Assembly: GCA_905181865.1 (NCBI GenBank)
Contig: CAJIZG010000004.1
Span: forward strand, 62,001-126,000
From: Urechidicola croceus
GTDB taxonomy: Bacteria > Bacteroidota > Bacteroidia > Flavobacteriales > Flavobacteriaceae
Length of the DNA: 64,000 bases
Reading direction: 5' to 3'
Position 1 is the first letter of the stretch. Each line of letters opens with the position of its first letter. This document shows positions 10,024 to 33,358 of the stretch, one piece after another. Under the pieces are notes generated by a model that was not told the origin of the DNA, searched no databases, and saw nothing but the letters and a program-made list of their open reading frames with translations. The position numbers were made by a program, and so were the translations under genes.

Positions 10024-10051
10024 AGCGTATCTTTTTAGGTGCGCTTTTTTT
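10024..10051 (+). terminator. Intrinsic terminator after the DUF3127 gene
   Basis: An 8-bp stem AGCGTATC / GGTGCGCT (10024-10031, 10038-10045, two G-U pairs) with a 6-nt loop, followed by seven Ts. A weaker hairpin TTTCTGA / TCAGAAA lies just upstream (9996-10013). A GTG at 10039 in the aat frame falls inside this structure, which argues against it as the aat start. Confidence 0.7.
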
Positions 10052-10062
10052 ATTGTAGCATA

Positions 10063-10767: not shown

Positions 10768-10924
10768 ACAGTAATTCATTAACCCAATAATTGTAAGTGA
10801 GTTTGTACTTTAAGCTGTAGGTTAGAGCTAAGTCTTAAAATTTAAATTATTGTTAAAAGGCTATTTTTTATTGATAAACAATAAAAATATAGTATGTTAC
10901 GGACCTAATTTAAGTTTTAACATC

Positions 10925-11581: not shown

Positions 11582-11591
11582 AATTGATAAA

Positions 11592-12109: not shown

Positions 12110-12605
12110 AGTATTTAATTGCCAACCATGTATGAAAAGAAGTTTAGAAAGGTCTTATTCAATTCAAAACAGTTGTATAGTTGTTGCGCATTATAGTTAG
12201 TTCACCTTTACTTTTCTAAAGATAATAAAACACCTATTACAAAGTAAAGACTAGTTTTTAACTAGTAACCAGCATGAGTAAGACAACGAATTTTAAAGAA
12301 TTCTCAATAGTTTTCCTGTTCAGAGCGTATCGAAGCGCAACGAGTGGTCGGTATGCGCAAGCAAATGATTACTAGAATTACGTATTCTATTATAGTTGCG
12401 GGTAGGGCTATAAGGAGATAATTAAATCTATTGTATTTTAGCATTGCTCTAAGTAGGAATTATAAATTTCATAATAAGTTAATCCTATATTTTATGAGTT
12501 TTATTCACAATCTAAAATAGTTACATTCCCCATACGCTCAAGTACTATAATTTATTACATTTGCGTGTTCGAGCACGAAGTTGGATGGATATAAATATTT
12601 TAAGT
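12110..12605. other. Long intergenic region before the sulfatase operon
   Basis: No convincing gene. It contains GAGCGTATCGAAGCGCAACG at about 12321-12340, which looks like a decayed copy of the GAGCGGAGTCGAAG-type repeat, and the sulfatase promoter element near its right end. The rest shows nothing recognisable. Confidence 0.4.
12556..12563 (+). promoter_or_regulatory. Candidate -7 element of the sulfatase operon
   Basis: TACATTTG matches TAnnTTTG. Transcription would begin near 12570, after the upstream in-frame codons at 12561. This supports the start codon at 12606 (or 12585) rather than a longer N terminus. Confidence 0.6.
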
Positions 12606-14135: not shown

Positions 14136-15803
14136 ATGCGATTTAATTCTGGTCATAGAAAGGATAATTTAAACGATCGACAATGTTCTTTGTTGATCAA
14201 AATTTTTATTTTTTTCACGATGTCTCTGACAACGACTATTGCTCAGAATAAATTCCCAGAAGATGTGCAATATAAAAAATTACCTACAGATGCTATTGCA
14301 ACCATCGCAAGTGGCAATCCAGATGAAGCGATTAAAAAAGTAGAGAAATATTTAATAGAATTCCCTGAACATACCGAATTTCACTTTTGTATGGCTGTTG
14401 CATATGCGGTTAAAAATAATATTACTAAATCTATAGCACATATAAATTTAGCGATGAAGTTTGGAATGCCTATCGAACGATTTGTGGCAGGACCTAGGGA
14501 CTTACTTAAAAATACTGTTGAGAGTAGCGCATTTCAAGAATTATTGCAAAGCAGGTCATCTGGGATTATACATGGCCCTATGCTGGGTAATGTTACGGCA
14601 ACTAGCGCAAAGATTTGGTTGCGAACTGCTAAAGAGGAAGAGGTAACTGTTGTACTTATTAAGAAGGGAGATGAAAAGCAAAAAGAGTTTTCTAGTAAAA
14701 CGTTGAAATCAAAAGATTTCACGGTAGTTATTCAAGTTAAGGATCTTGAACCATCTACAGAATATAGATACAGTATAAAGATAGAAGGGAATGTATCATT
14801 TAAGCATGGGACTTTTCAGACTATAAAAAATAAAGGAGAACACATCCAATTAAAGATTGGTTTTGGAGGAGGAGCTGGTTATACGCCTTGGTTTGAAAAA
14901 ATGTGGGATACATTAGCTGTGCAGTCGTTTGATACTTTTTTATTATTGGGTGACAATGTTTACATTGATTATCCAAAAGTTCCGGAGGCTCAGGAATATT
15001 GTTATTATAGACGGCAGAGTAGATCAGAATTTAGACGTTTTACGTCTAATGTTCCTATGTATGCCATTTGGGATGATCACGACTTTACAGTTAATGATGG
15101 CGCAGGTGGATCTGAAATTGAACGCCCAGCTTGGAAAAGACCAGTATTTAATTTGTTTAAAAACCAATGGGCAAACCCTTATTATGCGGGAGGAGATCAG
15201 CAGCCAGGATGCTGGTTTGATTTTTCTATGGGAGATATTGATTTCATCATGTTAGATTGCAGATATTATCGAGAGAACCCAAAAGAGATAAGCGATCCGT
15301 CTATGTTGGGAAGCGTTCAAAAAGAATGGTTAAAAGAAAGATTGAAATCCTCTAAAGCAACTTTTAAAATTATAGCATCTTCGGTTCCTTGGGCGAAAGA
15401 CACGAAGCCTGGTAGTGATGATACGTGGGATGGATTTCCAGAGGAAAGAGAAGAACTGTTTTCATTTATTGAAGAAAATAAAATTGAGGGAGTGGTGTTA
15501 CTTTCTGCGGATAGACACCGTTCTGATGCCTGGAAAATAAAAAGACCGAATGGCTACCCCTTTTACGATTTAATGAGTTCAAGATTAACCAATATTCATA
15601 CGCATGATATCTTGCAAGAAAGTTTATTTGGTTATAATAAGAAATGTTCATTTGGTACGTTGGAGTTTGATACAACCATTGATGATCCTTCGGTAACGTA
15701 TACGATTAAGAATATAGATAATGAAGAAATTCATAAGATGACTCTTTATAAAAGTCAACTCGATTTTAAAAGAGATATGGTTAAGAACAAAAAAATGAAA
15801 TAA
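14136..15803 (+). CDS. PhoD-like alkaline phosphatase with helical N-terminal extension
   Basis: A 555-aa exported metallophosphoesterase. A signal peptide ends at about TIAQ (residue 37). Residues 45-135 are helical and repeat-like (NPDEAIKKVEKYLIEFPEHT), resembling TPR units, which ordinary PhoD proteins lack. Residues 145-230 are the beta-sandwich N-terminal PhoD domain (GPMLGNVTATSAKIWLRT). The phosphatase domain has LGDNVYIDYP (271-280), WDDHDFTVNDGAG (312-324) and LSADRHRSDAW, the metal ligands of the PhoD fold. There is no gap to the sulfatase upstream, and its stop overlaps the next ATG by one base. It may be a phosphodiesterase acting on the same substrate as the sulfatase; this is inferred from context. 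Confidence 0.88.
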   Translation: MRFNSGHRKDNLNDRQCSLLIKIFIFFTMSLTTTIAQNKFPEDVQYKKLPTDAIATIASGNPDEAIKKVEKYLIEFPEHTEFHFCMAVAYAVKNNITKSIAHINLAMKFGMPIERFVAGPRDLLKNTVESSAFQELLQSRSSGIIHGPMLGNVTATSAKIWLRTAKEEEVTVVLIKKGDEKQKEFSSKTLKSKDFTVVIQVKDLEPSTEYRYSIKIEGNVSFKHGTFQTIKNKGEHIQLKIGFGGGAGYTPWFEKMWDTLAVQSFDTFLLLGDNVYIDYPKVPEAQEYCYYRRQSRSEFRRFTSNVPMYAIWDDHDFTVNDGAGGSEIERPAWKRPVFNLFKNQWANPYYAGGDQQPGCWFDFSMGDIDFIMLDCRYYRENPKEISDPSMLGSVQKEWLKERLKSSKATFKIIASSVPWAKDTKPGSDDTWDGFPEEREELFSFIEENKIEGVVLLSADRHRSDAWKIKRPNGYPFYDLMSSRLTNIHTHDILQESLFGYNKKCSFGTLEFDTTIDDPSVTYTIKNIDNEEIHKMTLYKSQLDFKRDMVKNKKMK

Positions 15804-18511: not shown

Positions 18512-18549
18512 TAATTTAGGGACTGGACGGATTTAATTAAAATTCAAGG

Positions 18550-18580
18550 AACTTCGTGATTTAGTCACGAAGTTTTTTTT
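18550..18580 (+). terminator. Intrinsic terminator of the sulfatase operon
   Basis: Perfect 10-bp stem AACTTCGTGA / TCACGAAGTT with a 5-nt loop, running into eight Ts. Confidence 0.92.
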
Positions 18581-18659
18581 GAGAAAAAATATAATTTTAT
18601 CAATCAAGAAGGAGTTTGGTGTTTCTGCTGAAGTTTTGAGATTAAAAGGATTTGTTATT

Positions 18660-18677
18660 TAAGGTTTTTAAACCTTA
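18660..18677. promoter_or_regulatory. Palindrome upstream of the YHYH gene
   Basis: TAAGGTTT-TT-AAACCTTA is a perfect 8-bp inverted repeat 36 bp before the ATG. It could be an operator or a leader hairpin. No clear -7 element was found beside it. Confidence 0.3.
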
Positions 18678-18712
18678 GTAAGATTCGTTAGTCAAATTGG
18701 AAACATAAAAAT

Positions 18713-19480
18713 ATGAAAATTACGAAATCTTTTTTTATAATTACGGCACTATTGGTATCTGTTTTTATTGCATGTTCAAATGAAGATGATGCAGAAGTTC
18801 TAGAAGAAGAAACCATTTTAGAAACAGATTATGATGTTTCTTCAATTCTTTCAAAATTTGAAGGAACCGGCCTGTCTTATGCCATCAACGGAAATACAGT
18901 TACTTTTACAACACAGGACTTACCAAATCATACAAGTCCGTATTGGCCTGCAAACAATGTATTATACGAAGCTTATAATGGTACGAATAACAATTGGCAT
19001 CAGAATCCGAATCAAATTGCTACGCAAAATATAGTGTTATCCATTACTTTAAATCCTGAAGAAGCAAATAATCATCAAGCAACTCCTTTAGGTCCTATAG
19101 GAATTTCTAGAAATGGTGTCGTGTTTTTTAATCAATATGCTGGTCCAGATCAACCATTGACCAACGAAATAAATTCATTTGATCAATATTTGGGGCATCC
19201 AACCGGTTTTGGCATGTATCACTATCATATTGAACCTGCATACTTAACTAGTGAATTTGGAGACGACGCTTTTTTAGGTTTGTTGTCTGATGGCTTTCCA
19301 GTTTATGGACCATTGGAGGGTGGAAAAACTATTTCAAATGCAGATTTAGATGCCTATCATGGTCACATATCTATAACATCAGATTTTCCTGAGGGTATTT
19401 ATCATTATCATATAACAGGCGGGGATCCATACCTCAATGGAAATGGGTATTTTGGAACCCCTGGAAATATATCGAGATAA
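18713..19480 (+). CDS. YHYH-domain lipoprotein
   Basis: A 255-aa lipoprotein (VFIAC, Cys21, followed by SNEDDAE). The YHYH domain is clear: GMYHYHIEP, then LLSDGFPVYGPLEGG, LDAYHGHISITSDFPEGIYHYHITG and a terminal GYFGTPGNIS. The many histidines in paired HYH motifs look like metal ligands, but no activity has been established for the family. It abuts the YwqK-like gene without a gap, and a SCO gene follows. The SCO neighbour makes a copper link conceivable; this is inference. Confidence 0.85.
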   Translation: MKITKSFFIITALLVSVFIACSNEDDAEVLEEETILETDYDVSSILSKFEGTGLSYAINGNTVTFTTQDLPNHTSPYWPANNVLYEAYNGTNNNWHQNPNQIATQNIVLSITLNPEEANNHQATPLGPIGISRNGVVFFNQYAGPDQPLTNEINSFDQYLGHPTGFGMYHYHIEPAYLTSEFGDDAFLGLLSDGFPVYGPLEGGKTISNADLDAYHGHISITSDFPEGIYHYHITGGDPYLNGNGYFGTPGNISR

Positions 19481-20065
19481 ATGAAATATACCTATGTATA
19501 TATAATTGTTTTTATAAGTGCTCTTGTCTGTTGTGAGAACAGCGATGAGAAAATTACTATTGAGTCTTCAACTGAGGGTTTAGAATTAGTAAATGGAATA
19601 TTAGAATTGAATAAAATTTCATTTTCGGGAAGGTTGACAACTCGTTTTGAAAATAATAAATTAAAATCTGAAATATTTTATGACAAGGGTAAGAAACATG
19701 GCTCAGAAAAGTATTGGTCAAAAAGTGGTGCTTTAATTCAGGAAAGATTTTATAAAAACGGCTATAAGGCTGGAACTCATAGCGCATGGTGGAGTCCTAA
19801 ATCTCCTAAATTTGTATATCACTTTAATAATCAAGGAGCGTTTCATGGAGAGGTAAAAGAATGGTATCGCTCGGGACAACTATATATGAGTTTTAATTAT
19901 GAAAATGGCAATGAAAATGGGCGTCAACAATTATGGAAAGTTGATGGTACTATTAAAGCAAATTATGAAGTTGTACATAGTGAGCGGTTTGGTTTGATAG
20001 GTTTAAAAAAATGTAATAATGTAAGTGATTCTGAAATTAGAGAGATCGTAAAAAACGAACAATGA
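19481..20065 (+). CDS. YwqK/MORN-like repeat lipoprotein
   Basis: A 194-aa lipoprotein (signal ending in ALVCC). The middle consists of repeats of the YwqK type: FENNKLKSEIFYDKGKKHGS, YWSKSGALIQERFYKNGYKA, WYRSGQLYMSFNYENGNENG, each a beta-hairpin with G-x-x-x-G-x-x-x-x-W/Y spacing. Database labels often call such proteins antitoxins, but no toxin is adjacent and the protein is exported, so that label is not supported here. It lies between the YHYH and SCO genes and overlaps the SCO gene by 4 bp (ATGA), so all three are one translational unit. Confidence 0.75.
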   Translation: MKYTYVYIIVFISALVCCENSDEKITIESSTEGLELVNGILELNKISFSGRLTTRFENNKLKSEIFYDKGKKHGSEKYWSKSGALIQERFYKNGYKAGTHSAWWSPKSPKFVYHFNNQGAFHGEVKEWYRSGQLYMSFNYENGNENGRQQLWKVDGTIKANYEVVHSERFGLIGLKKCNNVSDSEIREIVKNEQ

Positions 20066-20700
20066 AATATAGAATACATTCTTTGCTACTCGTAATTATA
20101 TGCATGACGTTTTATACCTGTAAAAAAAGTGCCGCACGGGCAACTGTAGATCATTTACCATATTTTAACAGTGCGGATTTTACACCGAAATGGGAAAAAG
20201 GTTCGCATAAAATTCCGGCTTTTTCATTTGTAAATCAAGATAGTGTTGTGATCACGAATAAGACCTTTGAAGGTAAAATATATATAGCGGATTTCTTTTT
20301 TACGAGTTGTTCCGGTATTTGCCCAAAGTTGACAAAAAATATGAGAAGCCTTCAGGAAAAATATAAAGATGATGACGATATTATGTTGCTTTCCCATACG
20401 GTAATGCCATGGAAAGATTCTATTTCAGTGATAAAAAAGTATGCAAAGGAGAATTTTGTTAATAATGTGAAATGGTATTTGGTAACGGGTGATAAAGAGC
20501 AATTATATAGTATTGCGAGAAAGGGGTATTTTGCCGATGAAGATTTTGTAAAAACACAAGATGAATCAAATTTTATTCATACAGAAAATTTCATTTTAAT
20601 TGATAAACTGGGATACATACGCGGCGTATATAACGGTACGTTGGAAGTTGATGTTGATCGATTAAAACGTCATATTAAAATATTACAAAAGGAAGGCTAA
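20062..20700 (+). CDS. SCO1/SenC-family copper protein
   Basis: A 212-aa thioredoxin-fold protein with an N-terminal lipoprotein-like signal (MTFYTC, Cys20). The copper site is FTSCSGICPKL with Cys83 and Cys87, completed by His173 in NFIHTENFILID. SCO proteins deliver copper to the CuA site of cytochrome oxidase subunit II or act as periplasmic thiol reductants. This copy lies far from the cox genes at 51.6-54.4 kb and is tied to the YHYH and YwqK genes. It may therefore serve that system rather than the oxidase, but this cannot be decided from sequence. Confidence 0.92.
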   Translation: MKYRIHSLLLVIICMTFYTCKKSAARATVDHLPYFNSADFTPKWEKGSHKIPAFSFVNQDSVVITNKTFEGKIYIADFFFTSCSGICPKLTKNMRSLQEKYKDDDDIMLLSHTVMPWKDSISVIKKYAKENFVNNVKWYLVTGDKEQLYSIARKGYFADEDFVKTQDESNFIHTENFILIDKLGYIRGVYNGTLEVDVDRLKRHIKILQKEG

Positions 20701-20812: not shown

Positions 20813-21175
20813 TTATTTTCTTTTGGCAGTCAGTTGAAGACTACCATCGCCAGTTTCTGAAACTCCTGTTAAAGAATCGCCTTTAACTGTTAACGTAACC
20901 TTTATTGGGTTCCCGTCAATGTCAAATTTAATTACAACTACGTTTTTATCAACTTTTATATCTTTGGTTTCAACACTGTCATATTGAAACTTGATTTCCG
21001 CACTGTATTTTCCGTCGTTCTTTTTAATGATAATGTCACCTTTGGCATATTCATACGGTGCATCTGGTGCCGAATAAGCCCATGTTCCTTCTACTCCTTT
21101 CACGGTGGTAAAAGATTGGATGGCAAATACTAAGGTTAAAAATAATGTTGCTTTTAAGATTTTTTTAATATTCAT
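20813..21175 (-). CDS. Small secreted beta-rich protein, unknown function
   Basis: A 120-aa protein with a signal peptide (MNIKKILKATLFLTLVFAIQ). The mature part starts GVEGTWAYSAPDAPYEYAKG and alternates short strands (DIIIKK, YSAEIKFQYDS, VVVIKFDIDG, IKVTLTVKGDSLTG), suggesting a small lipocalin-like barrel. No catalytic motif is visible. It is 29 bp downstream of the PKD lipoprotein gene, so it is probably the last gene of the SusCD operon and might bind the same ligand. Confidence 0.7.
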   Translation of the reverse strand: MNIKKILKATLFLTLVFAIQSFTTVKGVEGTWAYSAPDAPYEYAKGDIIIKKNDGKYSAEIKFQYDSVETKDIKVDKNVVVIKFDIDGNPIKVTLTVKGDSLTGVSETGDGSLQLTAKRK

Positions 21176-21204
21176 TGTATTTAATTTATAGTTAAAATTA
21201 TATT

Positions 21205-22128
21205 TTAGTTTACTTCGAATGATAAATGGAACATAATTGCTGGAAAGGTATATAAATCTGGATGTTCAACAACACCTAAAGACATGGCTACATTCATAGT
21301 GTTTTCCGTGATATCTTTGATGATTACAAATCCGTTAGCCTCTTTAATTCCGAAGTATTCACTCGTTAATAATTGTGTTTGTCCAGTAAATGTAGGTTGC
21401 TCAGGGGCTCCTGTATTAATATTAAATGAGGTTACCGTAAAGTCTTCCTCATTAACACTCCAGTTTCCATCTGTAGGAGTATACGCCACATTAGCTAAAG
21501 GAATATTAACTTGATCAGCAGATACTTCTCTAATATCTGCAGCTCGTTCAATAAAGGCATATACCAAGCCCATTAGACTATTACCATCTTTATTATCTAC
21601 TTTGTACTGCCCGTCATGAACAAACGTAAAAGTATCTTCATATGAAGCGCCTAAACCAACAGCACTTAATAGGTTATCAAAAGAACCAATATCAATTCTT
21701 AAATCGTTATTTACGGTATAACCAGCACCTTCTATCCCTGCAGTATAAGCGGCTTTCAATTTCCACGATTTTCCTTCTGGTTTTGCGGGGCCTCCAGTTA
21801 ATAATATTTCAAAGGATGGTAAAATGGTGACTGTTTTAGTTTCTGTAAAAGTTCCTTTTTCACTAGTTGCCGTAAAACTAACGTCAAATTCTCCTATATC
21901 ATAGGCATGTATTGGATCTTCTTCTGTAGAAGTATTTCCATCTCCAAAATCCCAAGTATAAGAAGATGTTCCTTCAGAAACGGTTCCGTTAAAAGTAACT
22001 ACAGCACCTTCTATTAAAAACTGAAAGTCTGAAAGAGGTTCGATTATTGTAATGTCATCATCATCGCTTTCGCATTGAACTAGCGTAAGAGAAATAATGG
22101 CAATAAAAAATATTTTAAATGGATTCAT
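21205..22128 (-). CDS. PKD-domain surface lipoprotein of the SusCD operon
   Basis: A 307-aa lipoprotein. The ATG at 22128 gives the signal MNPFKIFFIAIISLTLVQC (Cys19) followed by ESDDDD, an acidic stretch typical of surface-exposed lipoproteins in this phylum; a longer frame upstream adds no signal sequence. Residues 30-105 are a PKD domain (YTWDFGDGNTSTEEDPIHAY). The C-terminal part is unrecognised and beta-rich. In this position, after susC and susD, such proteins usually act as a second ligand-binding lipoprotein of SusE/F type. That role is inferred from context. Confidence 0.82.
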   Translation of the reverse strand: MNPFKIFFIAIISLTLVQCESDDDDITIIEPLSDFQFLIEGAVVTFNGTVSEGTSSYTWDFGDGNTSTEEDPIHAYDIGEFDVSFTATSEKGTFTETKTVTILPSFEILLTGGPAKPEGKSWKLKAAYTAGIEGAGYTVNNDLRIDIGSFDNLLSAVGLGASYEDTFTFVHDGQYKVDNKDGNSLMGLVYAFIERAADIREVSADQVNIPLANVAYTPTDGNWSVNEEDFTVTSFNINTGAPEQPTFTGQTQLLTSEYFGIKEANGFVIIKDITENTMNVAMSLGVVEHPDLYTFPAIMFHLSFEVN

Positions 22129-22157
22129 AATTATATGTTTTAACATTTGTATCAGTT

Positions 22158-23639
22158 TTAATTTTTGTCCCACCAAATTGGTGTGTCAATTTTATTTGCT
22201 CCTTGTCTTGCTATAGCTTCAGAAGCATTTGTTCCGTTAGAGCTTAATTCAAAACTGCTATATAAAAATCGCTTTGGCATAATTCCATTTGTAACACCAC
22301 GTTCTAAATCACTGTCGGTTCTTTCTTCAATAACAGGGTAACCAGTTCTTCGTATATGGCTCCATCCTTCGAAATAGTCTGGTGTTAAAGCAATCCACAT
22401 TTGAGTACCCATTTGTTCTTCTTGTTCTAGGGTAGTTCCTGTTAATGTTCCAATAGGGCTTGCTAGGAAATTAGTGATTTCCGCAGCGCCAACGTTCCAT
22501 TGACGTAAAGAAGTTTCTATGGCCATTCTATATATATCGTTTGCTACGGCAGGTTCATTATCATATGCTAAAGCGGCTTCCGCTCTAAGAAAGTAAACTT
22601 CTGCTGCTGTCATTAAGTACATTTTACTCTCCTTAGAGGAAAGCGCTAATCCCATATCTGATTTACTTGCAAAATCAGACTGACCAAAAGCGACATCATT
22701 CAATCCGTTTTTTTGACCTGTATAGTTTCCATTTTCATCTTGCATAACAAAAACAGCAAGTCTTGGATCTGCCGTGTTTTCTAATTTTCCAACCATGAAA
22801 GTGGACATTTTAATAGAAGGATATCCAGTTCTATTTCCGTACCATCCATTTCCTTGTCCTTCCGTTTGGATCATAAATGCGTTGTGACTGTTGTCTTCCA
22901 TCAATGGATCTGCTAAAGATAGACTCACTATTTGCTGTGATAGGGCATTATCTGCATACCTCAATCGCATTCCTAGACGTAAGCGAAACGAATTTGCAAA
23001 TCGAACCCACTTGTTTAAATCATTGTCAAAAATAGGATCTGAATCTGGATAAGCCATCGCAGGATCTGCGGTTTTAAGTACATTGATGCTTGCTGTTAAT
23101 CTAGCAATTAAATCAGTGTAAATGAATTGTTGTGTGTCATATTTAGGCGTTAGAATATCTTCAGATTTTCCTTTTCCACCTTCTGTATAAGGAATTTCTC
23201 CAAAACCATCTGTAATTCTTGCAAAGCCCATCACGTTTATGATATCTGCCATCGCATATCGAACAGTATTTGGAGTTTCTTCGTTAGAGGTAAGTAAGAG
23301 TACTTCTTCTGAATGTCTAATAACTCCATTATAAGTGCCATTTAAAACGCTGTTGTAATTTCCGTCAAAGCCATCTATATATTGATCTGGTTGGCGTGAT
23401 GTACTTCCTGCAACATAATAATGTGCATGCATTCCAGCAAATCGTACAGTTCCTTGATCTAATGTTCCTCCAAAAAGGCTTCTAACGGCATTGGCAAACA
23501 AAGGTGCATCGTCAATAGTTGTTACTGTATTTGGATTTTCTCGAACATCTTCCAAGGTGTCTTCACAGGATGTGAATACTATTCCAACCAGTAAAACAAG
23601 TAAAAATTTAAATTTTATATTTTGTATATTTTTCATCAT
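22158..23639 (-). CDS. SusD/RagB-like nutrient-binding lipoprotein
   Basis: A 493-aa outer-membrane lipoprotein (VFTSC, Cys25, then EDTLED). The sequence fits the SusD-like 2 group: [19 protein letters not shown] near the N terminus, [33 protein letters not shown] (a TPR-like helix pair) and the C-terminal WWDKN. It caps the SusC barrel and binds ligand before import. The group often occurs with non-glycan as well as glycan uptake systems, so the substrate stays open. It starts 9 bp after the susC stop. Confidence 0.93.
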
Positions 23640-23647
23640 GTTCCGTT

Positions 23648-26600
23648 TTAAAAGTTGATTTTTATATTTACTCCATAAGTCCTTGTAGAAGGCAGCGAAG
23701 CATGTTCTAAAGCAGTCGCTGTTGGACTACTACCATTACTTGCGTCTGGATCAATATCGCCAGTCGCGTTATGGATAAAAAATAGATCCCTGCCTATGGC
23801 AGATAAACTTACTCCTTGAACTCCAGAATTGCCTAATGCTTTTTTAGGAACATCATATGTGAATACGATTTCTTTCATTTTAATATTTGAGGCATCAAAA
23901 ATTAAATCGGTTCTAATATTACTTACGTAATTATTAGTGTAATTTTTTTGTAATGCGCTAACGGGAGTTGTGTTTTCGAACCCAGTATTTTCATTAATAC
24001 CCTCTTCAATAATTCCATCAACTCTACCAATTAGTGAACTAGCATCTGTACCAAACATTTCGCGGTAACCACGTCCCCAAGAAAAGAATTCTCCTCCTTC
24101 TTGGTAACTAATCAACGTTCTTAAGGAAAAGTTTCTATACTTGAAGTTATTACTAATCCCTCCATAAAAATCAGGATTTATAGAGCCTAATTTAATGCGT
24201 TCTCCAGGTTGTGCCAATCCTGCATCTGTAATTAATTTGCTACCAAAATTATCACGCAGATAATCAAGTCCGTAAATAGTTCCAAATTCTTCTCCTGGTC
24301 TTGCTTCAATAGAAACTTGCATCAAGGAGTTTAAAGTAATACTCTCTAAAGATTCATCGATACTTTCCACAACGGATTTACTTTTGGTAATTGAAAGTCC
24401 CATATCCCAACTAAAGTTTTCAGTTTCTAAAGGAATCAAATTCAATTGTGCTTCAAAACCTTCGTTTTTAATAGAACCTGCATTTGTGATATAATTGCTG
24501 TATGCCGAAGTGCCAGAAATAGGAACTGACATAATTTGGTCTTCCGTTAATGTTTCATAATAGGTAAAATCTAAATGAATACGATTTTTAAAGAACCCTA
24601 ATTCTGTTCCGATTTCCCATGAGTTAGAAACTTCTGGGCGCAAGTTTGGATTTGGAAGTGTTCCAGGAATAGAAGCAACCGTATAATCCAGCGTTCGCGC
24701 TTGATTTATATTATACGATGATTGTGTTCTATAAGGACTTGTGTCGTTTCCAACCTTGGCATAAGAGGCTCTTACTTTTCCTTTACTTAAGGTGTTTGAT
24801 TTTAATCCAAAAAACTTAGAGAACAGGAAACTTAGATTTTCTGAATGATACCAGAAAGAATCATTTTCTGCTGGTAATGCAGATGAATTATCGTTTCGTA
24901 TAGTAGCGTCTAAGTATAAATAGCCACCATAACTAATTTGCCCTAGACCATAATATGAGTAAACAATTTTTTTTCGCATAGAATCTGAATCGCTCACTAT
25001 GGCATAATTTGAAATTCTATAAAAGTTTGGAACTTTTTCTTCGGTTCCAGATACACCTATAGATTTACTATAGTCAGACCTGTAATTTGCACCAACACTC
25101 CCAGTAACGTTAAATCCAGAAAACTTAGTGGTATACGTAGCCAAAATATCAGAATTCCAAGAACTGCTTTTACTTTGATTGGTGCCGTAGTTTCCTAATC
25201 CATTGCTATTGGCTTTTCCTCCTGCGGCGGCATGTCTAGTTCCATCACTAACTCTATAATTTAAGCCAGTTTTCCCAGTAATATAAAATTTATCTGTCAG
25301 GTCTAGTTTCGCTGAAAATGAACTTTGAAATAAATCTCGACTATCTTCATTATAAACATTGTTTAAAGCCCAATATGGATTATTAAAGGTGTTGTCTAAA
25401 TTCCATTTGATTTCATTTCCATTTGCATCCAAGGTATTTTTTTTTGCATCTTCTAATCTAATGTCTCTTGGCATTAAAGAAAGTTGTAGTGCCGTATTTG
25501 AGGCTCCTTCTCCTAGTTCAGGTCTGTTTTTAACCTTAGATTTAATATAAGTCACTTTACCATCAATCTTTAATTTATCAGTTAAGTTAGAAGAAGCTCT
25601 AAAATTTATGGTGTTTTTGTTAAGTGTATTATTAGGAATAATTCCTTGGGTATCTTGATTGGTAAAAGACATTCTGAATCCACTGTGATCCGTAGCCCCT
25701 TCAAAAGAGACTCCGTTGGTAAATGAATGTCCGTCTTGATAAAATTCTTCATAGGTATTGCCCCTTGGAGAATAAGTATCCTCAGCTCCTAACCAATTTG
25801 TATAGGGCTGCCCCTCCATTTTTGGTCCATAACTCCATGAGCTCGGATAATCTAAATTTGGTCTTCCATCACTTCCTATTGGCGAGAAACTATCAAAAGC
25901 TCCCATTCCATATTCATTTTGAAGTTTAGGTGTTAAGGCGATTTCAGTAACAGTAAAGGAAGAGGTCAATGTAACTCCAATGCCATCTTTACTAACACCA
26001 GATTTAGTTGTTACAAGTATTACACCGTGCATACCTCTTGAACCGTATGCTGCTGCAGCTCCTGCGCCTTTTAAAACAGTAACTGTGGCAACGTCATTTG
26101 GGTTGATATCTGAAAGCGCATCACCACCATCTCTGCCTCCATTTGGATTTCCGCTACTGCTTCCATTTGATACAGGGATACCATCAACCACAACAAGCGG
26201 TCTGTTAGATCCATCTATTGTAGTAATACCCCTTAGTAAAATTCGTGAAGATCCATCAACTCCTGTATTACCTTGTGTTATCTGAAGTCCAGATACTTTA
26301 CCAGATAAGGAATTCATAATGTTGTTTTCTTGTGCAACAGCAAACTCTTCTGGTTTTAATTGTTGAACAGAATATCCAAGGGAGGCTTTATCTCTTTGGA
26401 TATCGAAAGCAGTAACAATAACTTCATCTAAAGCTTCTGCATCTTCTTCAAGCAATACATTTAGACTGGTTTGTCCAGTTACACTTATTTCTTGGGGCTT
26501 GTATCCAATAAATGAAAATACCAATACAGCATTTTCGTCAATATTTTGTATGGTAAAGTTTCCGTCAAAGTCAGCCGCCATACCTTTGGAAGAACCCTTA

Positions 26601-26728
26601 ACTGTAATGCTAACCCCTGGTAATGGTTCGTTTGTTGTTTTGTCAACAACCTTACCGGAGATTGATTTTTGCGCATAAGTTGATATCGAAAATCCGATAG
26701 CTACTATTAATAGCAGTAGTTTGTTCAT
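23648..26728 (-). CDS. SusC/RagA-type TonB-linked outer-membrane receptor
   Basis: A 1026-aa outer-membrane transporter. A signal peptide (1-19) is followed by a carboxypeptidase-regulatory-like domain ([20 protein letters not shown]). The plug starts at about residue 105 ([20 protein letters not shown]) and contains [11 protein letters not shown] and the SusC signature [21 protein letters not shown] 22-strand barrel ends in [10 protein letters not shown] with the terminal Phe. It imports ligand with TonB energy together with the SusD-like partner downstream. No sigma/anti-sigma pair or hybrid sensor is adjacent; instead a TetR gene lies upstream. An operator-like 16-mer is about 146 bp before the ATG. 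Confidence 0.95.
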
Positions 26729-26873
26729 AGAGTAGATGTTAAATTATTAATTTGTTAATTCTTTGGAGTTTTTAAAGCTCCTATTTGGTGCAGACTGATT
26801 GGATTGTTATTCGTGAAAATCTGTACTAAATATTATAAAAACAGAGTTTGATTTGAACGTTTATTCAAAAACA

Positions 26874-26889
26874 GACCGTCCGTTCGGTT
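26874..26889. promoter_or_regulatory. Candidate TetR operator upstream of susC
   Basis: GACCGTCCGTTCGGTT matches the site at 27709-27724 in 13 of 16 positions, including the ACCG...CGGT dyad. On the minus strand it begins 1 base after a -7-like TATATTAG, so a bound repressor would cover the start of susC transcription. Confidence 0.65.
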
Positions 26890-26890
26890 G

Positions 26891-26898
26891 CTAATATA
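26891..26898 (-). promoter_or_regulatory. Candidate -7 element of the susC operon
   Basis: TATATTAG on the minus strand differs from TAnnTTTG at one position. A TTTG lies 23 bp upstream (26922-26925, minus strand), slightly longer than the usual 19-21. The support is mainly its position beside the operator. Confidence 0.45.
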
Positions 26899-26976
26899 TA
26901 TAAATTTTTTTAAAGTAAAGACAAATAAAAAGATTAACTATGGAATTAAGAACTAGTTAGTTAAGAAAATAAGGGG

Positions 26977-27660
26977 TTAATCAATCACCTTAGTAAGTTC
27001 TAATTGCCGTTTTTTGTAGGCACTGTTAAGTTCCAAATAATCGGCACAAATAAACTTCAAATAGCTGTCAAACACAAGATCATATTTTTTTGATAATTCC
27101 TTTTTAACATTATCTTTAATCGTTGAATGGTGCAATGCGACTCCTTCAATGAGACCAATAACTGTAAAAGTAATAGCTTCTAAATCTAGATTGCTCTTAA
27201 GTTGTTGATTGTCATGCGCTACATGAATAATATCTCGAATTAAATTTCTAAATTTAGATACAGTTAGCGTAGTTTGCCCGTGTATGGCTTCATTTTTCTC
27301 GCTTTCTAATTGGAAACTAAAATAATTTCTGATTGGATAATCAGAGTCTTTCAGGGAAATATTTTCAATAGAATCAAAAAGTTTAAGAGCGAAATCACAT
27401 AAATATTTAATGTCTTGAACAAAGTTTCCAGATTTAAAATTGAGCCTTTCTGGCTGCATCAATTCAAAATAATAGGTTTCTATGGTGGCTGAATAAATAT
27501 CTTCCTTACTTTCAAAATGATGATAGATTGCACCCTTTGAAAGCTTTGTTATTTCCATTATATTTTTTATTGTCACCTCTTTAAATCCCTTTTGTAAAAA
27601 CAAAGAGAAGGCTGCTTTGATAATGGAATCTTTACTGTTTAGATCTTTTTTTTTGACCAT
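26977..27660 (-). CDS. TetR-family transcriptional regulator
   Basis: A 227-aa one-domain regulator. The DNA-binding domain at residues 8-58 has IIKAAFSLFLQKGFKEVTIK and the recognition part LSKGAIYHHFESKEDIY. The C-terminal helical ligand domain is unrelated to well-known groups by eye. It is divergent from the aldehyde dehydrogenase gene and lies upstream of susC on the same strand. A 16-bp dyad in both upstream regions (27709-27724, 26874-26889) makes it the likely regulator of tetR itself, the dehydrogenase operon and the SusCD operon. The inducer is probably the imported substrate or a breakdown product. Confidence 0.93.
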   Translation of the reverse strand: MVKKKDLNSKDSIIKAAFSLFLQKGFKEVTIKNIMEITKLSKGAIYHHFESKEDIYSATIETYYFELMQPERLNFKSGNFVQDIKYLCDFALKLFDSIENISLKDSDYPIRNYFSFQLESEKNEAIHGQTTLTVSKFRNLIRDIIHVAHDNQQLKSNLDLEAITFTVIGLIEGVALHHSTIKDNVKKELSKKYDLVFDSYLKFICADYLELNSAYKKRQLELTKVID

Positions 27661-27698
27661 AATATAAATGCCTAATGTTAGATTTAAATATTTTTTAT

Positions 27699-27706
27699 TA
27701 CATTTG
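27699..27706 (+). promoter_or_regulatory. -7 element of the aldehyde dehydrogenase operon
   Basis: TACATTTG on the plus strand, 2 bases before the operator at 27709. It would give a 5' leader of about 138 nt. Confidence 0.65.
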
Positions 27707-27708
27707 TG

Positions 27709-27724
27709 AACCGACCGATCGGTT
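27709..27724. promoter_or_regulatory. Candidate TetR operator between tetR and the aldehyde dehydrogenase gene
   Basis: AACCGA-CCGA-TCGGTT is a perfect 6-bp dyad around a 4-bp centre. It sits between two -7 elements on opposite strands, each 2 bases away, so it overlaps both transcription starts. The ACCGACCG/CGGT pattern is like operators of many TetR proteins. Confidence 0.8.
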
Positions 27725-27726
27725 TG

Positions 27727-27759
27727 TAAATGTATCTAAAATATATTTAACCATCCAAA
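27727..27759 (-). promoter_or_regulatory. tetR promoter
   Basis: On the minus strand, TTTG (27756-27759), a 21-bp spacer and TACATTTA (27727-27734) match the Bacteroidota -33/-7 pattern with one mismatch in the -7 box. The start would fall within the operator. Confidence 0.65.
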
Positions 27760-27850
27760 TACTATTTTTTTGAGCGGTTGAAATATACGGATTTTGTTCT
27801 GGTAACAAGAATGAAATAGTTGAAAGTTACCAAGTTTAAGCACATAAAAA

Positions 27851-29212
27851 ATGGAGAAATTAATAAATTCACAAAGAGAATTCTTTTTTTCTAAAGCAAC
27901 GTTGGATCTTAATTTTAGAATTGAGCAATTGAGGAAGTTAGAAGGGATTTTAAAAAAGAATGAAACTGAGTTAGATCGTGCTATCTATGCTGATTTCGGG
28001 AAATCTTCATTTGAAAATTACGAAACTGAACTTGGATTAATCTATCATGATATTGATAGTGCTTGCCGTAATTTAAAACGATGGGCAAAAGTCAAAAAGG
28101 TCTATACAAATGTTGCAAATCTTCCAGGACGGAGTTATATTATACCAGAGCCTTTGGGTGTGTCTCTCGTTATTGGCGCCTGGAATTATCCTTATCAATT
28201 ATCTTTATGTCCAACTATTGCTGCTATTGCAGCTGGTAATACGGTGGTTTTAAAGCCAAGTGAATTGTCTGCTGAAACAAGTAGGATAATATCGAAACTT
28301 ATTAATGAAAATTTTGAATCAAATTTTTTCAAAGTAGTTGAGGGAGGCATAGAAGAAACTACTAACTTACTTGCTCAGAAATTTGATAAAATATTTTTTA
28401 CAGGTAGTACTACCGTTGGTAAAATCGTGTATAGAGCAGCAGCTAAAAATCTTACTCCTGTAACGTTGGAGTTAGGTGGTAAAAGTCCTGCGATACTTGA
28501 TGAAAAGTGTAATTTGAAAACTTCAGCAAAAAGGCTGGTGTGGGCAAAATTTATAAACTCTGGGCAAACGTGTATTGCTCCAGACTATGTTTTCGTGCAT
28601 AAATCTATTAAGGAGCAGTTTTTGAAACAAGTATCGATTGAAATAAAAAAATCGAAGTATGCCGTTGAAAATAGTAATTACGTTCAAATAATCAATAAAA
28701 GGAATATGGAACGTTTGATAAATTTTATTGATAAGGACAAGGTTTATTTGGGAGGAGATTTTGATATGGAGAACAAATATATTTCACCGACAGTAATGGT
28801 AGATGTTGATTTTGATGATGCCGTAATGCAAGAAGAAATTTTTGGACCAATCATGCCGGTTTTGGAATATGAAAACATTGAAGATGTAATTCTAAAGATT
28901 AAGGAGAAACCGAAACCTTTGGCTTGTTATGTTTTTACAAATAGTAAGAAGAATAAATGGAAGATATTGAATGAAATTTCCTTTGGAGGAGGCGCCGTGA
29001 ATGATGCAGTTATGCATATTTCAAACAGTAGGCTTCCGTTTGGAGGCGTTGGAGATAGTGGTACTGGATCCTATCATGGGGAATTTGGATTTAAAACTTT
29101 TTCACATTTTAAAAGTGTTTTGGAGAAACCTACTTGGATAGAACCAAATTTAAAATATTATCCGTTGACAGATTTAAAATTGAAGTTGATAAAATTTGTT
29201 TTGAAATTATAA
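27851..29212 (+). CDS. Aldehyde dehydrogenase, class 3 / YwdH-like
   Basis: A 453-aa NAD(P)-dependent enzyme that oxidises aldehydes to acids, cytoplasmic or membrane-associated. Motifs include IGAWNYPYQLSLCP, KPSELSAETS, FFTGSTTVG, the general base Glu207 in LELGGKSPAI and the nucleophile Cys241 in NSGQTCIAPDYV. The short length and PEPLGVSLVIGAWNYP pattern place it with class 3 / fatty-aldehyde dehydrogenases. The basic-hydrophobic C terminus (LKLKLIKFVLKL) could touch the membrane. Oxidation of a medium or long-chain aldehyde is a family-based guess. It is the first gene of a three-gene operon with two c-type cytochrome genes, 18 and 15 bp apart, under the TetR operator. Confidence 0.92.
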   Translation: MEKLINSQREFFFSKATLDLNFRIEQLRKLEGILKKNETELDRAIYADFGKSSFENYETELGLIYHDIDSACRNLKRWAKVKKVYTNVANLPGRSYIIPEPLGVSLVIGAWNYPYQLSLCPTIAAIAAGNTVVLKPSELSAETSRIISKLINENFESNFFKVVEGGIEETTNLLAQKFDKIFFTGSTTVGKIVYRAAAKNLTPVTLELGGKSPAILDEKCNLKTSAKRLVWAKFINSGQTCIAPDYVFVHKSIKEQFLKQVSIEIKKSKYAVENSNYVQIINKRNMERLINFIDKDKVYLGGDFDMENKYISPTVMVDVDFDDAVMQEEIFGPIMPVLEYENIEDVILKIKEKPKPLACYVFTNSKKNKWKILNEISFGGGAVNDAVMHISNSRLPFGGVGDSGTGSYHGEFGFKTFSHFKSVLEKPTWIEPNLKYYPLTDLKLKLIKFVLKL

Positions 29213-29230
29213 GTTAAAGAAAAATTTGAA

Positions 29231-30466
29231 GTGAGTTTAGGCAATATTAAAATAAAATTTAAAGTAGTATTTATAGCGTCATTGTTGATTTTGTCAATGA
29301 TGATTTATTTAGGTGTTAAAAAGGAGCAACCTGTTGCGATGTTAACAGAAGTGAATGAAGAATATTTTAATTTAAGTAGTCATTGTCCTCCTGGGTTTAT
29401 GCTGAATGAAAATAATGAGTGTGTTTCGAGGAATTTATATCAACAATACGAGTACAAGGAAAAGAAAAGTAATAGGGGTGTAGGCGGTTTAAAAACGGCA
29501 CTGCCAGATTTGCGAGAAGGGTTTAGTCCCCAGCAAATTGATTTGGGAAGATATTTGTTCTTTGACCCTGTACTTTCTGGTGATGGAAGTGTTTCTTGTG
29601 CAAGTTGTCATGATCCAAATCAAGGATTTAGCGATGGAAAAGCACTTGGTAAAGGTATTCACGGTGCTAAAATGAAACGTTCCTCTCCAACATTATGGAA
29701 TGTTGGTTATTTAAAAAATTTATTTTGGGATGCTAGATCTGGTAGTTTAGAGCACCAGATGCAAGGGCCTCTTTATTCTGAAGAGGAGATGGGAACAACG
29801 AAAGAACAGCTGCTGAATACATTGAATACCATTGATGAATATAAAAGATTATTTGGGGTAGCTTTTCCACAACGCGAGAAAACCGATAGTATAAATATAG
29901 GAGAAATTTACACGTCTATTGCCGCCTTTGAATCGTCTTTAATATCTCTAAATAGTCGATATGATCAATATGCACATGGATTTCATAATGCACTAAATGA
30001 AAACGAAATTAAGGGGTTGAATATTTTCAGATCATTTGTTGCTAGATGTGCGGAATGTCACACGCCCCCATTATTTACCAATCAGCAGATTGCCGTTATT
30101 GGTACTCCAGAACCAGATGGATTACCATTTGATCCTGGTGCGGAAATTACTTTTAAAGACAGTACAAGAAGAGGGGGGTTTAAGGTCCCTTCTTTAAGAA
30201 ATATAGAAAAAACCGCCCCTTATATGCATTCTGGAAAATTTACTAATTTACGAGATGCTGTCGAGTTTTACACAAAAGGAAGAGGGCATGCAGTGCCAGA
30301 GAATGAGGATTTATTTATACATTGGCACATATGGACGCCTAATTTAACAGAGCTAGAATTAGATCGTTTGGTAGACTTTTTAAGGACCTTAACAGATGAG
30401 TCTTTTAAGCCACGGGTGCCGAAAATATTGCCATCAGGAATTAATTCACAACAAATAAAATCATAA
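29231..30466 (+). CDS. Di-heme cytochrome c peroxidase / MauG-family protein
   Basis: A 411-aa membrane-anchored periplasmic protein. The GTG at 29231 is the only start before the signal anchor (residues 8-28), because the frame is closed by a stop at 29210-29212. Residues 50-64 form a small Cys loop (HCPPGFMLNENNEC). The two heme motifs are CASCH (123-127) and CAECH (273-277), with the conserved FWDARSGSLEHQ after the first heme and APYMHSGKF near the end. Family members reduce hydrogen peroxide or, as MauG, make oxidative modifications of protein residues. With an aldehyde dehydrogenase upstream and a heme-carrying beta-helix protein downstream, a catabolic oxidation is plausible. Confidence 0.9.
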   Translation: MSLGNIKIKFKVVFIASLLILSMMIYLGVKKEQPVAMLTEVNEEYFNLSSHCPPGFMLNENNECVSRNLYQQYEYKEKKSNRGVGGLKTALPDLREGFSPQQIDLGRYLFFDPVLSGDGSVSCASCHDPNQGFSDGKALGKGIHGAKMKRSSPTLWNVGYLKNLFWDARSGSLEHQMQGPLYSEEEMGTTKEQLLNTLNTIDEYKRLFGVAFPQREKTDSINIGEIYTSIAAFESSLISLNSRYDQYAHGFHNALNENEIKGLNIFRSFVARCAECHTPPLFTNQQIAVIGTPEPDGLPFDPGAEITFKDSTRRGGFKVPSLRNIEKTAPYMHSGKFTNLRDAVEFYTKGRGHAVPENEDLFIHWHIWTPNLTELELDRLVDFLRTLTDESFKPRVPKILPSGINSQQIKS

Positions 30467-30481
30467 CTAAATATTAATAAT

Positions 30482-31990
30482 ATGTTAAATACAAAAGGAG
30501 CATCGATTGGTAAGAAAACTTTATTCTTTATAATTATTTTATCAATTGGTTTTTACGGAGGGTATAAATTTTTTGCACCTACCTCGGAAGTAGCAATGGT
30601 AAAAAACGCCTTGTATAGAAGTGGTGCATCGGGTAAGGCGCTTTTGAATCAAACCAAAGAATTTACAGGTCAAGTGTTTGAAGTTAAAGATGGAGATTTG
30701 ATTATGGATGCTGTTATAAAGGCGCAACCAGGTGATTTGATTCGAGTGTACCCTGGTACATATTCTGAAACAGTGTATGTTGATAAAAGTGATATTACCT
30801 TTCAAGGAATAGTTGAAGGAGGAGAATGGCCAACTTTGGACGGTAAAACTACGTTAAATGATGCGTTTTTATATTCAGGAAATGGAATTCATATAGAAGG
30901 TTTCAAAATTACGAAGTACAAAGGTAATGGTATTATGGGACAAGCAGGTAATAATTTTGTGATTAGAAACAACTGGATTGTTGATACGGGAGTGTATGGG
31001 ATTTTTCCACAATATGGAAAAAATGGACTTATAGAATACAATACCTTGACAGGAATTGAAGATGCAGCAATTTATGTTGGAATGTGTGATAATATAGATG
31101 TATTGCACAATGAAGTTTTTGGAAATGTTGCCGGTATTGAATTTGAAAATTCACGTCATTGTATTGCTGAAAATAATAATGTTTATGATAATGCAGGAGG
31201 GATATTGGCGTTTATTACGCCAGGATTACCTATTAAAACCACCTATGATATTATCATTAGAAATAATTTTGTAAATGAGAATAACCACGTTAATTTTGCC
31301 CCTCCAGGATCCACCGTGGCTGGCGTGCCTTCTGGGACGGGAATCTTAATTATGGCTGCGGATGATGTTATTGTTGAAGACAATATCATTTCAGGAAATA
31401 ATAACGTAGGGATTTTGATTACAGATTTTCCAAATGGTGGAATTAAGGCATCAAGAGATCCAGAAGCAGATCCCAACCCAGACAATGTAACTATATTAAA
31501 TAATTTGATGATGCGCAATGGTGCTGATCCAATTGATGAAATAAAAGTGTTAATGAAAACGCTATTTATGAAAGTTGGGCCAGATATTTTGGCAATTGGA
31601 AAAGGAAGTGGAAGTGCGATTTTGAATAGAGAAAAATATGTAACGTTTGGAATTGGTAGTTACGGAAATCCAACGAAGACCACTTCTTATGGTGTAAAAA
31701 CATTTTTGTTAGATAAACCTGCTGAGCACAGAGATATTACGAAGAAACAATTAGGAGAATTCACCTACTATGGAGTTTGTGCTGGATGTCATGCCTTTAA
31801 CACAAGATTAATTGGCGTGCCAACAAATGTGATTCAAGCAATTCATACAAACAACCCCCAAGGAATCGTAGATTATATCAACGCACCTAAAAACTTACGT
31901 GAAGATTATCCAGAAATGCCTCCTCAAAGCCATTTGTCCGAGGAAGCAAAAATGGCTGTAGCTGAATATATTTTAGGTTTAAAAAAATAA
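30482..31990 (+). CDS. Right-handed beta-helix protein fused to cytochrome c
   Basis: A 502-aa exported protein, anchored by a membrane helix at about 12-30. Residues 62-330 are a parallel beta-helix. GDLIRVYPGTYSETVYVDKS opens it, and turns such as NNFVIRNNWIVDTG, NIDVLHNEVFGNVAGIEF and DVIVEDNIISGNNNVGILI are PbH1 repeats as in polysaccharide lyases, epimerases and NosD. Residues 410-502 form a mono-heme cytochrome c with CAGCH at 433-437 and a likely Met ligand in PEMPPQSHL near 479. A beta-helix usually binds or cleaves a long chain; here it is joined to an electron-transfer domain. No lyase catalytic residues were identified. It is the last gene of the TetR-controlled operon. Confidence 0.82.
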   Translation: MLNTKGASIGKKTLFFIIILSIGFYGGYKFFAPTSEVAMVKNALYRSGASGKALLNQTKEFTGQVFEVKDGDLIMDAVIKAQPGDLIRVYPGTYSETVYVDKSDITFQGIVEGGEWPTLDGKTTLNDAFLYSGNGIHIEGFKITKYKGNGIMGQAGNNFVIRNNWIVDTGVYGIFPQYGKNGLIEYNTLTGIEDAAIYVGMCDNIDVLHNEVFGNVAGIEFENSRHCIAENNNVYDNAGGILAFITPGLPIKTTYDIIIRNNFVNENNHVNFAPPGSTVAGVPSGTGILIMAADDVIVEDNIISGNNNVGILITDFPNGGIKASRDPEADPNPDNVTILNNLMMRNGADPIDEIKVLMKTLFMKVGPDILAIGKGSGSAILNREKYVTFGIGSYGNPTKTTSYGVKTFLLDKPAEHRDITKKQLGEFTYYGVCAGCHAFNTRLIGVPTNVIQAIHTNNPQGIVDYINAPKNLREDYPEMPPQSHLSEEAKMAVAEYILGLKK

Positions 31991-32008
31991 AATAAATAGT
32001 ATTTTTTA

Positions 32009-33358
32009 CTATAAATTCTCGCCATAAGACCAACCTTTTCTTGCGGGCTCCTTTATATAAGCATCTATATCAGGTCGGTTGGTTATCTTCATATTAGCTG
32101 CGTCATATTTAATTTTAGCACCAAATCTTTGGGCTAAAACTCCAATGAGAGCCATTTCAGTTAGTTCCGCTGCGTAATTAAAGTTGGAACCCGGGAGTGT
32201 ATTATTCTTAATGGCATTTAACCATTCATCGACCGGTTTTTCTTCCTTAACTCTTGGGATTGTTTTTTCTGGAGTATTTTTCAAAAATTCTTTCCATTCT
32301 TCTCCAGATACCAATAATTCTGGTTTGTTTGGTCTTCCTCCCGTAATTAGGGTGTTTTTATCACCAATCATAATCATACCAGATTTATCAAATTCACTAA
32401 TTCCCCATTCCTTACGAATTTCAGGTTTCGATCCTCCTTCATGCCATTTTAGTGTTACAGGTACTTTGTTTCCTCTTGCACCAAAATTATAGGTTACAAC
32501 CGACTCTTCTGCCACAAATCCATGTTTAGTCATTGGATTTGGAACTTCCCCTTCTACGGTATGAGGCATTCCTAAATCTAAAGCCCAAAATGGACCGTCA
32601 AGTGTATGACAAGACCAGTCACCCAGCATTCCGTTGCCATAATCATAAAACCCTCTCCACGATTTTGGCGCATAGGCAGAATTAAACGGTCGTTCAATAG
32701 CAGGTCCTTGCCAAAGATTCCAATCGAGGTATTCAGGTACTTTATGAGTAGCGGGCGGAAAACTACTAGGCTTAGTCCAATATCCTCCTGGTTTAAAATC
32801 GAATTTCCCATGCCAAGCATGAATTTCTCTAACTTGTCCGAGAACACCAGCATCATACCATTCTTTAATCAATCTGATCCCGTTGGTAGTGTGTCCTTGA
32901 TTCCCCATTTGGGAGACAATTTTATAATAGTTCGCAGCTTTTTTTAGCGTTCTCAATTGCCAAATATTGTGTGCTAATGGTTTTTCAACATATACATGTT
33001 TTCCAAGTTCCATAGCAATCATGGTTGCTGCGAAATGTGTATGATCTGGAGTTGAAATTATAACGGCATCTATTTCATTGGCCATTTCATCAAACATAAC
33101 TCTAAAATCTTTATATTTTTTTGCTTTTGGAAATAAGGCGTATCCTTCAGCCGCTCTATTATCGTCCACATCACACATGGCAACAATATTTTCTTGTGAG
33201 ACTTGACTCCAGTTTGCTCGTGCTCTACCTCCAACGCCAATAACGGCAATGTTTAATCTATTATTGGCAGAAAAACTGTAAAGTTGCGGTAAAATGAGTA
33301 AGCCACTAGAAGCAGCTGAACTCGATTTTAAAAAGGATCTTCGAGAAATATTTTTCAT
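32009..33358 (-). CDS. Tat-exported Gfo/Idh/MocA-family oxidoreductase
   Basis: A 449-aa NAD(P)-dependent oxidoreductase with a twin-arginine signal (SRRSFLKSSSAASSG). The Rossmann domain opens with LNIAVIGVGGRARANW and contains DAVIISTPDHTHFAATMIAM and VYVEKPLAHN, where EKP is the family motif with the catalytic Lys. The C-terminal part (GNGMLGDWSCHTLDGPFWAL, WHEGG) is typical of the large exported branch common in Bacteroidota and Planctomycetota. The tightly bound cofactor allows work in the periplasm, usually on sugars. It converges with the beta-helix gene with only 18 bp between and no terminator, so its link with that operon is only positional. Confidence 0.9.
   Translation of the reverse strand: MKNISRRSFLKSSSAASSGLLILPQLYSFSANNRLNIAVIGVGGRARANWSQVSQENIVAMCDVDDNRAAEGYALFPKAKKYKDFRVMFDEMANEIDAVIISTPDHTHFAATMIAMELGKHVYVEKPLAHNIWQLRTLKKAANYYKIVSQMGNQGHTTNGIRLIKEWYDAGVLGQVREIHAWHGKFDFKPGGYWTKPSSFPPATHKVPEYLDWNLWQGPAIERPFNSAYAPKSWRGFYDYGNGMLGDWSCHTLDGPFWALDLGMPHTVEGEVPNPMTKHGFVAEESVVTYNFGARGNKVPVTLKWHEGGSKPEIRKEWGISEFDKSGMIMIGDKNTLITGGRPNKPELLVSGEEWKEFLKNTPEKTIPRVKEEKPVDEWLNAIKNNTLPGSNFNYAAELTEMALIGVLAQRFGAKIKYDAANMKITNRPDIDAYIKEPARKGWSYGENL

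Follow-up and report, generated by a model that had tools for sequence, protein, structure and literature searches.

A palindrome at the tetR, aldehyde dehydrogenase and susC promoters points to a probable TetR regulon joining SusCD to an oxidation operon in Urechidicola croceus

Introduction

SusCD systems are usually run by hybrid sensors or by sigma/anti-sigma pairs. In the stretch of U. croceus DNA analysed here (64 kb, referred to as the window), a tetR gene stands between a susC unit and a set of oxidation genes, and similar 16-base sequences lie at the promoters on either side of it. This raises the question of whether one TetR-family protein may control both uptake and oxidation. A preliminary description of the locus had proposed a TetR regulon joining SusCD to an oxidation operon. 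We find this to be the best reading of the sequence, strongly supported by the order of the genes in related blocks, by the co-occurrence of TetR and operator and by the placement of the -7 boxes.

Genes of the locus

The tetR, aldehyde dehydrogenase (ALDH) and susC genes lie where the preliminary description had implied, and the locus reads as follows.

20813..21175 (-), small protein, which judged by its spacing alone may close the susC unit
21205..22146 (-), PKD-domain protein, third in the susC unit (PKD_4, 8.9e-12; start placed at an internal ATG)
22158..23639 (-), SusD-like_2 lipoprotein (1.4e-77; 261.8 bits, cut-off 27)
23648..26728 (-), SusC/RagA TonB-linked outer-membrane protein (TIGR04056, 3.1e-186; 621.6 bits, cut-off 368.25)
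26977..27660 (-), TetR-family regulator, 227 aa (TetR_N, 1.3e-13; 50.9 bits, cut-off 24)
27851..29212 (+), aldehyde dehydrogenase of the class 3 / fatty aldehyde type (Aldedh, 1.2e-85)
29231..30466 (+), di-haem protein of the CCP/MauG superfamily (CCP_MauG, 2.4e-50)
30482..31990 (+), BHcyt, a beta-helix protein whose C-terminus weakly matches c-type cytochromes (Beta_helix, 6.2e-18; TIGR03805, 7.7e-51)

The tetR gene is located between the two candidate operators described below, with a predicted minus-strand unit (susC, susD and the PKD gene) on one side and a predicted plus-strand unit (ALDH, di-haem protein and BHcyt) on the other; the gaps within both units are shorter than 30 bases. The TonB-linked SusC barrel and the adjacent SusD lipoprotein form a SusCD pair, and the PKD gene is kept behind susD in relatives. 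A tblastn search of the stretches from relatives found no counterpart of the small protein at 20813..21175. The best PDB matches of the ALDH are 6k0z (aldehyde dehydrogenase), 4qgk (fatty aldehyde dehydrogenase) and 1ad3 (class 3). The di-haem protein is assigned by the superfamily Pfam model CCP_MauG alone, as it scores below the cut-offs of the NCBIfam models for MbnH and MauG enzymes (TIGR04039, 215.6 against 362.85; TIGR03791, 174.3 against 443.85). The Cytochrome_CBB3 match of BHcyt (1.7e-4) is likewise below its cut-off, and a PDB search for its substrate returned no match at E ≤ 0.01.

Among the nine proteins scanned at 20813-33358 there is no glycoside hydrolase, lyase or other carbohydrate-degrading family, so that a glycan is not the obvious substrate; within the same nine proteins, SusCD is not accompanied by the degrading enzymes of a polysaccharide utilisation locus. 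Two observations count against a non-glycan view. The convergent neighbour at 32009-33358 has its best score with a glycoside 3-dehydrogenase model (371.6, cut-off 750), and an open reading frame at 12561-14135 appears by eye to be sulfatase-like. The latter is the first in an upstream series of genes at 12561-20700 of the window, the others being PhoD-like, cytochrome/DUF6797, YHYH and SCO1/SenC genes; no link of this region to the operators was seen.

Candidate operators and promoter layout

The candidate operators and the promoter elements next to them are as follows.

26874..26889, operator 2, GACCGTCCGTTCGGTT, within the susC promoter
26891..26898 (-), -7-like box of susC, TATATTAG (5/6 named positions of TAnnTTTG)
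27699..27706 (+), -7 box of the ALDH operon, TACATTTG (6/6 named positions)
27709..27724, operator 1, AACCGACCGATCGGTT, common to the divergent tetR and ALDH promoters
27727..27734 (-), -7 box of tetR, TACATTTA (5/6 named positions)

We confirm that AACCGACCGATCGGTT and GACCGTCCGTTCGGTT agree at 13 of 16 bases, as first described; the mismatches are at positions 1, 6 and 10. The reported layout also held: operator 1 lies between opposed -7 boxes, 2 bases from each, and operator 2 is 1 base from the susC box (26898-26891). According to a report on Flavobacterium psychrophilum (PMC9723704), the -7 box TAnnTTTG occupies positions -12 to -5 in that organism. The distance from the start of TAnnTT to the downstream ACCG is 9-11 nt at all 12 promoters tested, which represent 11 palindromes (site 1 being measured in both directions) and 12 of the 19 aligned promoter rows; the other seven rows (the second tetR of L053, and L054-L056 in both directions) were judged by eye. 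Taken together with the box position in F. psychrophilum, this spacing would place the palindrome at about -3 to +14, in agreement with the earlier proposal that the sites cover the expected transcription start. A TetR dimer at the predicted position would block the start, and from this we infer repression.

The susC site is the less symmetric of the two, three of its 16 bases are unlike those of site 1, and its -7 box misses one named position. It could therefore be a weak site or a relic, with TetR controlling only its own gene and the divergent ALDH operon and with susC run in some other way. We regard this as improbable, as the nearest rows to the window on the BHcyt tree, from the same-genus genome G010 and from L053, have a strict site (ACCGWNNNNWCGGT) at the susC promoter in the same placement as in the window.

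The TetR protein

The N-terminus of the window TetR carries a TetR_N helix-turn-helix. The structure model (pLDDT 85.5) has ten helices and predicts a helical C-terminal ligand domain, although TetR_C_13 falls below its cut-off (21.2 against 27). The 50 PDB matches listed for the model have TM-scores to the target of 0.53-0.78, and judged by their names they look like TetR-type regulators. None of the PDB or sequence matches singled out a ligand. The protein has a candidate palindromic operator at its own promoter (27709-27724). Residues S41, K42, G43, I45, Y46, H47, H48 and F49 are invariant across 15 TetRs, in keeping with a shared half-site.

The gene block in relatives

In the family sample (397 genomes), 21 genomes, among them that of U. 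croceus, have a BHcyt match at E ≤ 1e-60. In ten of the 20 relatives' stretches the mauG-like, BHcyt, susC, susD and PKD genes all run in one direction, nine of them with an ALDH gene as well; in the other ten there is no such SusCD beside BHcyt, which counts against the joint regulon. The mauG-like, BHcyt and ALDH genes occur alone in L036, L041 and L044, and G010 has a run of susC, susD, PKD, mauG-like and BHcyt genes without ALDH. Given the one-direction block in half of the stretches, the window is a split form of one block, and the operator common to both halves would tie them together through regulation, as their arrangement in a row does in other genomes. We note that susC is in two pieces in L048 (6085-9160), perhaps through a frameshift or an assembly error.

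In the class sample, BHcyt is present in 16 of 295 genomes, which are that of U. croceus and 15 from other families. The 15 out-of-family stretches (three of them 6-12 kb long) contain no match to SusC, SusD, PKD, TetR or ALDH at E ≤ 1e-5 and no strict site; one has a LytTR match. A FadJ-like gene is found in six of them, all from one genus code that holds eight of the 15. The class 3 ALDH and the FadJ-like neighbours hint weakly at lipid or aldehyde chemistry.

Co-occurrence of TetR and operator

A search with the TetR alignment returned 80 loci, of which 19 are plausible relatives (L052-L070, 34-64% identity); weak or short N-terminal matches (L071-L131) were left out of everything. L009 was dropped as the same place as L052, and one of L051 and L057 as a duplicate (the trees keep L051). 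As with all cross-genome counts given here, the following come from related genomes, which are not independent samples. With duplicates dropped, the strict site is present at a promoter in 9/9 clusters with an adjacent TetR (the window, L046, L052, L053, L057, L058, L059, L060 and L062). Addition of L055, a contig-cut locus that stops inside susD, makes this 10/10; its susC site is 6 kb from a TetR that has a different site of its own, which counts against the pairing. In six loci (L046, L057-L060 and L062) a single promoter site precedes tetR as the first gene of the block. The strict site is ahead of susC in L052 and L053, and the window has two sites. Two further points count against the pairing: the susD gene of L058 contains another strict site, and the tetR promoter of G010 lacks a full site. 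Upstream of its susC unit, L053 has two tetR genes in tandem (10001-11742), their products 57 and 50% identical to the window TetR; a variant site precedes the second tetR, and a strict site precedes susC.

In contrast, only one of 18 BHcyt clusters without an adjacent TetR has a strict site, and this is inside the PKD gene (L048). At E ≤ 1e-25 the window-type TetR was not found in any of 17 genomes with site-less clusters, while the same search recovered it in 4/4 positive genomes. The eighteenth genome (G424) is an ambiguous exception to the pairing: it has a TetR 48% identical to that of the window on another contig, and its cluster has no strict site but a degenerate palindrome ahead of mauG. 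This palindrome is at L050:12076, and the TetR (G424:C135:1770-2375) lies beside an open reading frame that by eye is receptor-like. The 18 TetR-less stretches contain five sequences that share 13 or 14 of 16 bases with operator 1; the one at 14/16 (L045) is inside the BHcyt gene, and one (L050) is ahead of mauG. TetR relatives without a cluster (L054, L056, L061 and L063-L070), which are outside the 9/9 count, have no strict site.

The preliminary description had held that the regulon would be contradicted if relatives had retained the locus but lost the motif. Such loss does occur, but it does not have that meaning here. A LytTR-like gene is found near mauG in 11 of the 18 clusters without an adjacent TetR (neither regulator is found in the other seven), and since motif loss coincides with the absence of TetR in 17/17 genomes and with this LytTR gene, it supports the regulon.

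Of the TetR-family proteins of the U. croceus genome, the comparison covered the one adjoining the cluster. Another TetR-family protein of the genome might recognise the palindromes, in which case the adjacent TetR would not be responsible, or not alone. In G260 the same core is indeed found upstream of genes that include a different TetR, as described below. Across genomes, however, site presence tracks the window-type TetR, and the site directly precedes tetR in six loci; we therefore consider this explanation quite unlikely. In the order sample, which includes members of the family, the window-type TetR was found at E ≤ 1e-30 in the U. croceus genome alone (1/395). Within the genus, 13 further genomes were searched, a good number of which are incomplete, and it was found at E ≤ 1e-20 only in G010.

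Rarity of the motif

The consensus RACCGWCCGWTCGGTT with up to three mismatches has seven matches in the window, against 0.59 expected, and none of 100 shuffles reached seven. Three of the seven are the two operators (site 1 matches on both strands), and the remaining four each have three mismatches. A search of the whole genome (3,420,398 bases), as the preliminary description had suggested, found the tight form ACCGNNCGNTCGGT without mismatches only at operators 1 and 2. With one mismatch allowed there is no excess (6 forward and 2 reverse matches, compared with 5 and 3 in the reversed control). The looser patterns are not enriched in this genome either: ACCGANNNNTCGGT occurs at one place (site 1) against three in the reversed control, and ACCGWNNNNWCGGT at five places against 11, the three other than the operators all being within open reading frames. 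As these patterns are at or below control frequency, only the tight form is informative. That the similarity of the operators is due to chance or to a functionless repeat is very unlikely: looser patterns can be found at other places in this genome, but no more often than in reversed controls, and the shuffles, the restriction of the tight pattern to two places, its conservation and the spacing all argue against it.

In other genomes, ACCGANNNNTCGGT is found at two places in G010 (control 0), neither at the cluster, at five in G244 including the cluster site (control 4; no clear enrichment), and at eight in G260 including the cluster site (control 2). Three places in G260 and one in G244 outside the clusters were inspected; two of those in G260 are intergenic and the other two places are in open reading frames. 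Loose motifs were rejected as genome-wide regulon finders, their counts in the U. croceus genome not being above those of the reversed controls.

Regulatory model

Weighing the site pairing, the promoter geometry and the gene order, we think it very probable that TetR jointly represses the SusCD-PKD and ALDH/di-haem/BHcyt units through the common palindrome. The window TetR would be a ligand-released repressor, the dimer of which would bind a palindrome of the ACCGA-N4-TCGGT type over the transcription start, directly behind the -7 box. One common site would serve tetR's own promoter and that of ALDH, and the second site that of susC. Uptake by SusCD with the PKD protein and the ALDH / di-haem / beta-helix-cytochrome operon would be shut off together. 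A small molecule would bring about release; it is probably the compound that is taken up, or else an aldehyde or acid derived from that compound, and knowing the TetR ligand would give a clue to what the system as a whole acts on.

Possible exchange with LytTR

Seven of the 11 LytTR clusters (L034, L035, L038, L039, L042, L043 and L048) have the mauG-like, BHcyt, susC, susD, PKD and ALDH genes in one order, and L037 has the same set minus ALDH; no such SusCD is present in the stretches of L040, L045 and L047. The LytTR gene of L034 matches PF04397 (4.1e-15), and the N-terminal half of its product is hydrophobic by eye. No conserved motif ahead of the LytTR and mauG genes was evident by eye in four loci.

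In Cerina litoralis (L051/L057) the TetR block is flanked by ilvD-like and pxpB/pxpC-like genes (names read from translations). The same address holds a LytTR block in L034 and L043 and, in L044, a shortened form that lacks both regulators as well as SusCD. The TetR-type rows do not form one clade on the BHcyt tree (AU p 5.2e-05, for a group chosen after the tree was seen). At least three changes between TetR and LytTR are needed on this tree, or eight if rows with neither are counted, and four on the SusC tree; they may have gone in either direction. Transfer of the whole operon along with its regulator may be an alternative to replacement, except where the address is kept.

L039 is a LytTR-type locus, yet its SusC groups with that of the window; the BHcyt of L039 groups elsewhere (AU p 1.4e-49 and 4.1e-10 for swapped placements). 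Over L039:10753-16264, identity to the window is 80% for SusC, 74% for SusD and 69% for PKD, and 63 and 62% for the mauG-like protein and BHcyt. This different grouping indicates exchange of a SusCD-PKD module, which from these trees is taken to have a history of its own.

We tentatively suggest, with rather less confidence than would make it our expectation, that TetR and a membrane LytTR have been swapped several times (at least three changes on the BHcyt tree) on one Flavobacteriaceae SusCD/di-haem/BHcyt/ALDH operon, once at the same address, that SusCD-PKD has crossed between the two regimes, and that a small, perhaps lipid-like, non-glycan cargo is sensed inside the cell by TetR or at the membrane by LytTR. 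The clusters provide natural genome pairs with the same gene set under TetR or LytTR.

Comparison with known systems

QacR, TtgR and MtrR are local, autoregulated TetR-family repressors with efflux pumps as cargo. The window TetR, which matches them by sequence, resembles them in its TetR_N domain, its all-helical model and a palindrome over its own and a divergent promoter. It differs in cargo, which is the SusCD and di-haem/cytochrome/ALDH set, with no efflux pump. The pair of a TIGR04056 SusC and a SusD-like_2 protein beside a PKD protein is like other Bacteroidota SusCD systems, whereas the lack of a glycoside hydrolase or lyase in the nine proteins and the presence of TetR in place of the usual regulators are not. 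The LytTR-type Flavobacteriaceae clusters are alike in gene set and have an upstream LytTR, but neither a window-type TetR nor a strict promoter site.

Among the titles and abstract openings listed for the open-access literature, none described a TetR operator at a SusCD promoter. Local TetR repression is of a known kind; what is new is that it would act on a SusCD operon and alternate there with LytTR. The locus would represent a SusCD system with a simple one-protein switch, and a conserved Flavobacteriaceae gene set, apparently unstudied among the literature matches listed, that is united by regulation and gene order.

Related palindromes beside other cargo

In G260 (Cerina litoralis) an identical core lies ahead of a same-strand gene run whose last member, 3 kb away, encodes a different TetR. 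The two intergenic sites there (L147:7315 and 12003) are 7.7 and 3.0 kb from this TetR (15048-15662), beside which is a radical-SAM gene that we presume to be ArsS-like. The core may represent a wider class of TetR operator. Variants of the core, palindromes of the ACCGCTTAGTCGGT type, are also found at L054:7782, L055:7778 and L056:7783 between two -7-like boxes (placed by eye), in the same layout as in the window. The cousin TetRs of these three loci (53-57%) lie in a run of FGGY kinase, class II aldolase and aminotransferase genes, divergent from an MFS gene, the family assignments having been tested in L055 only.
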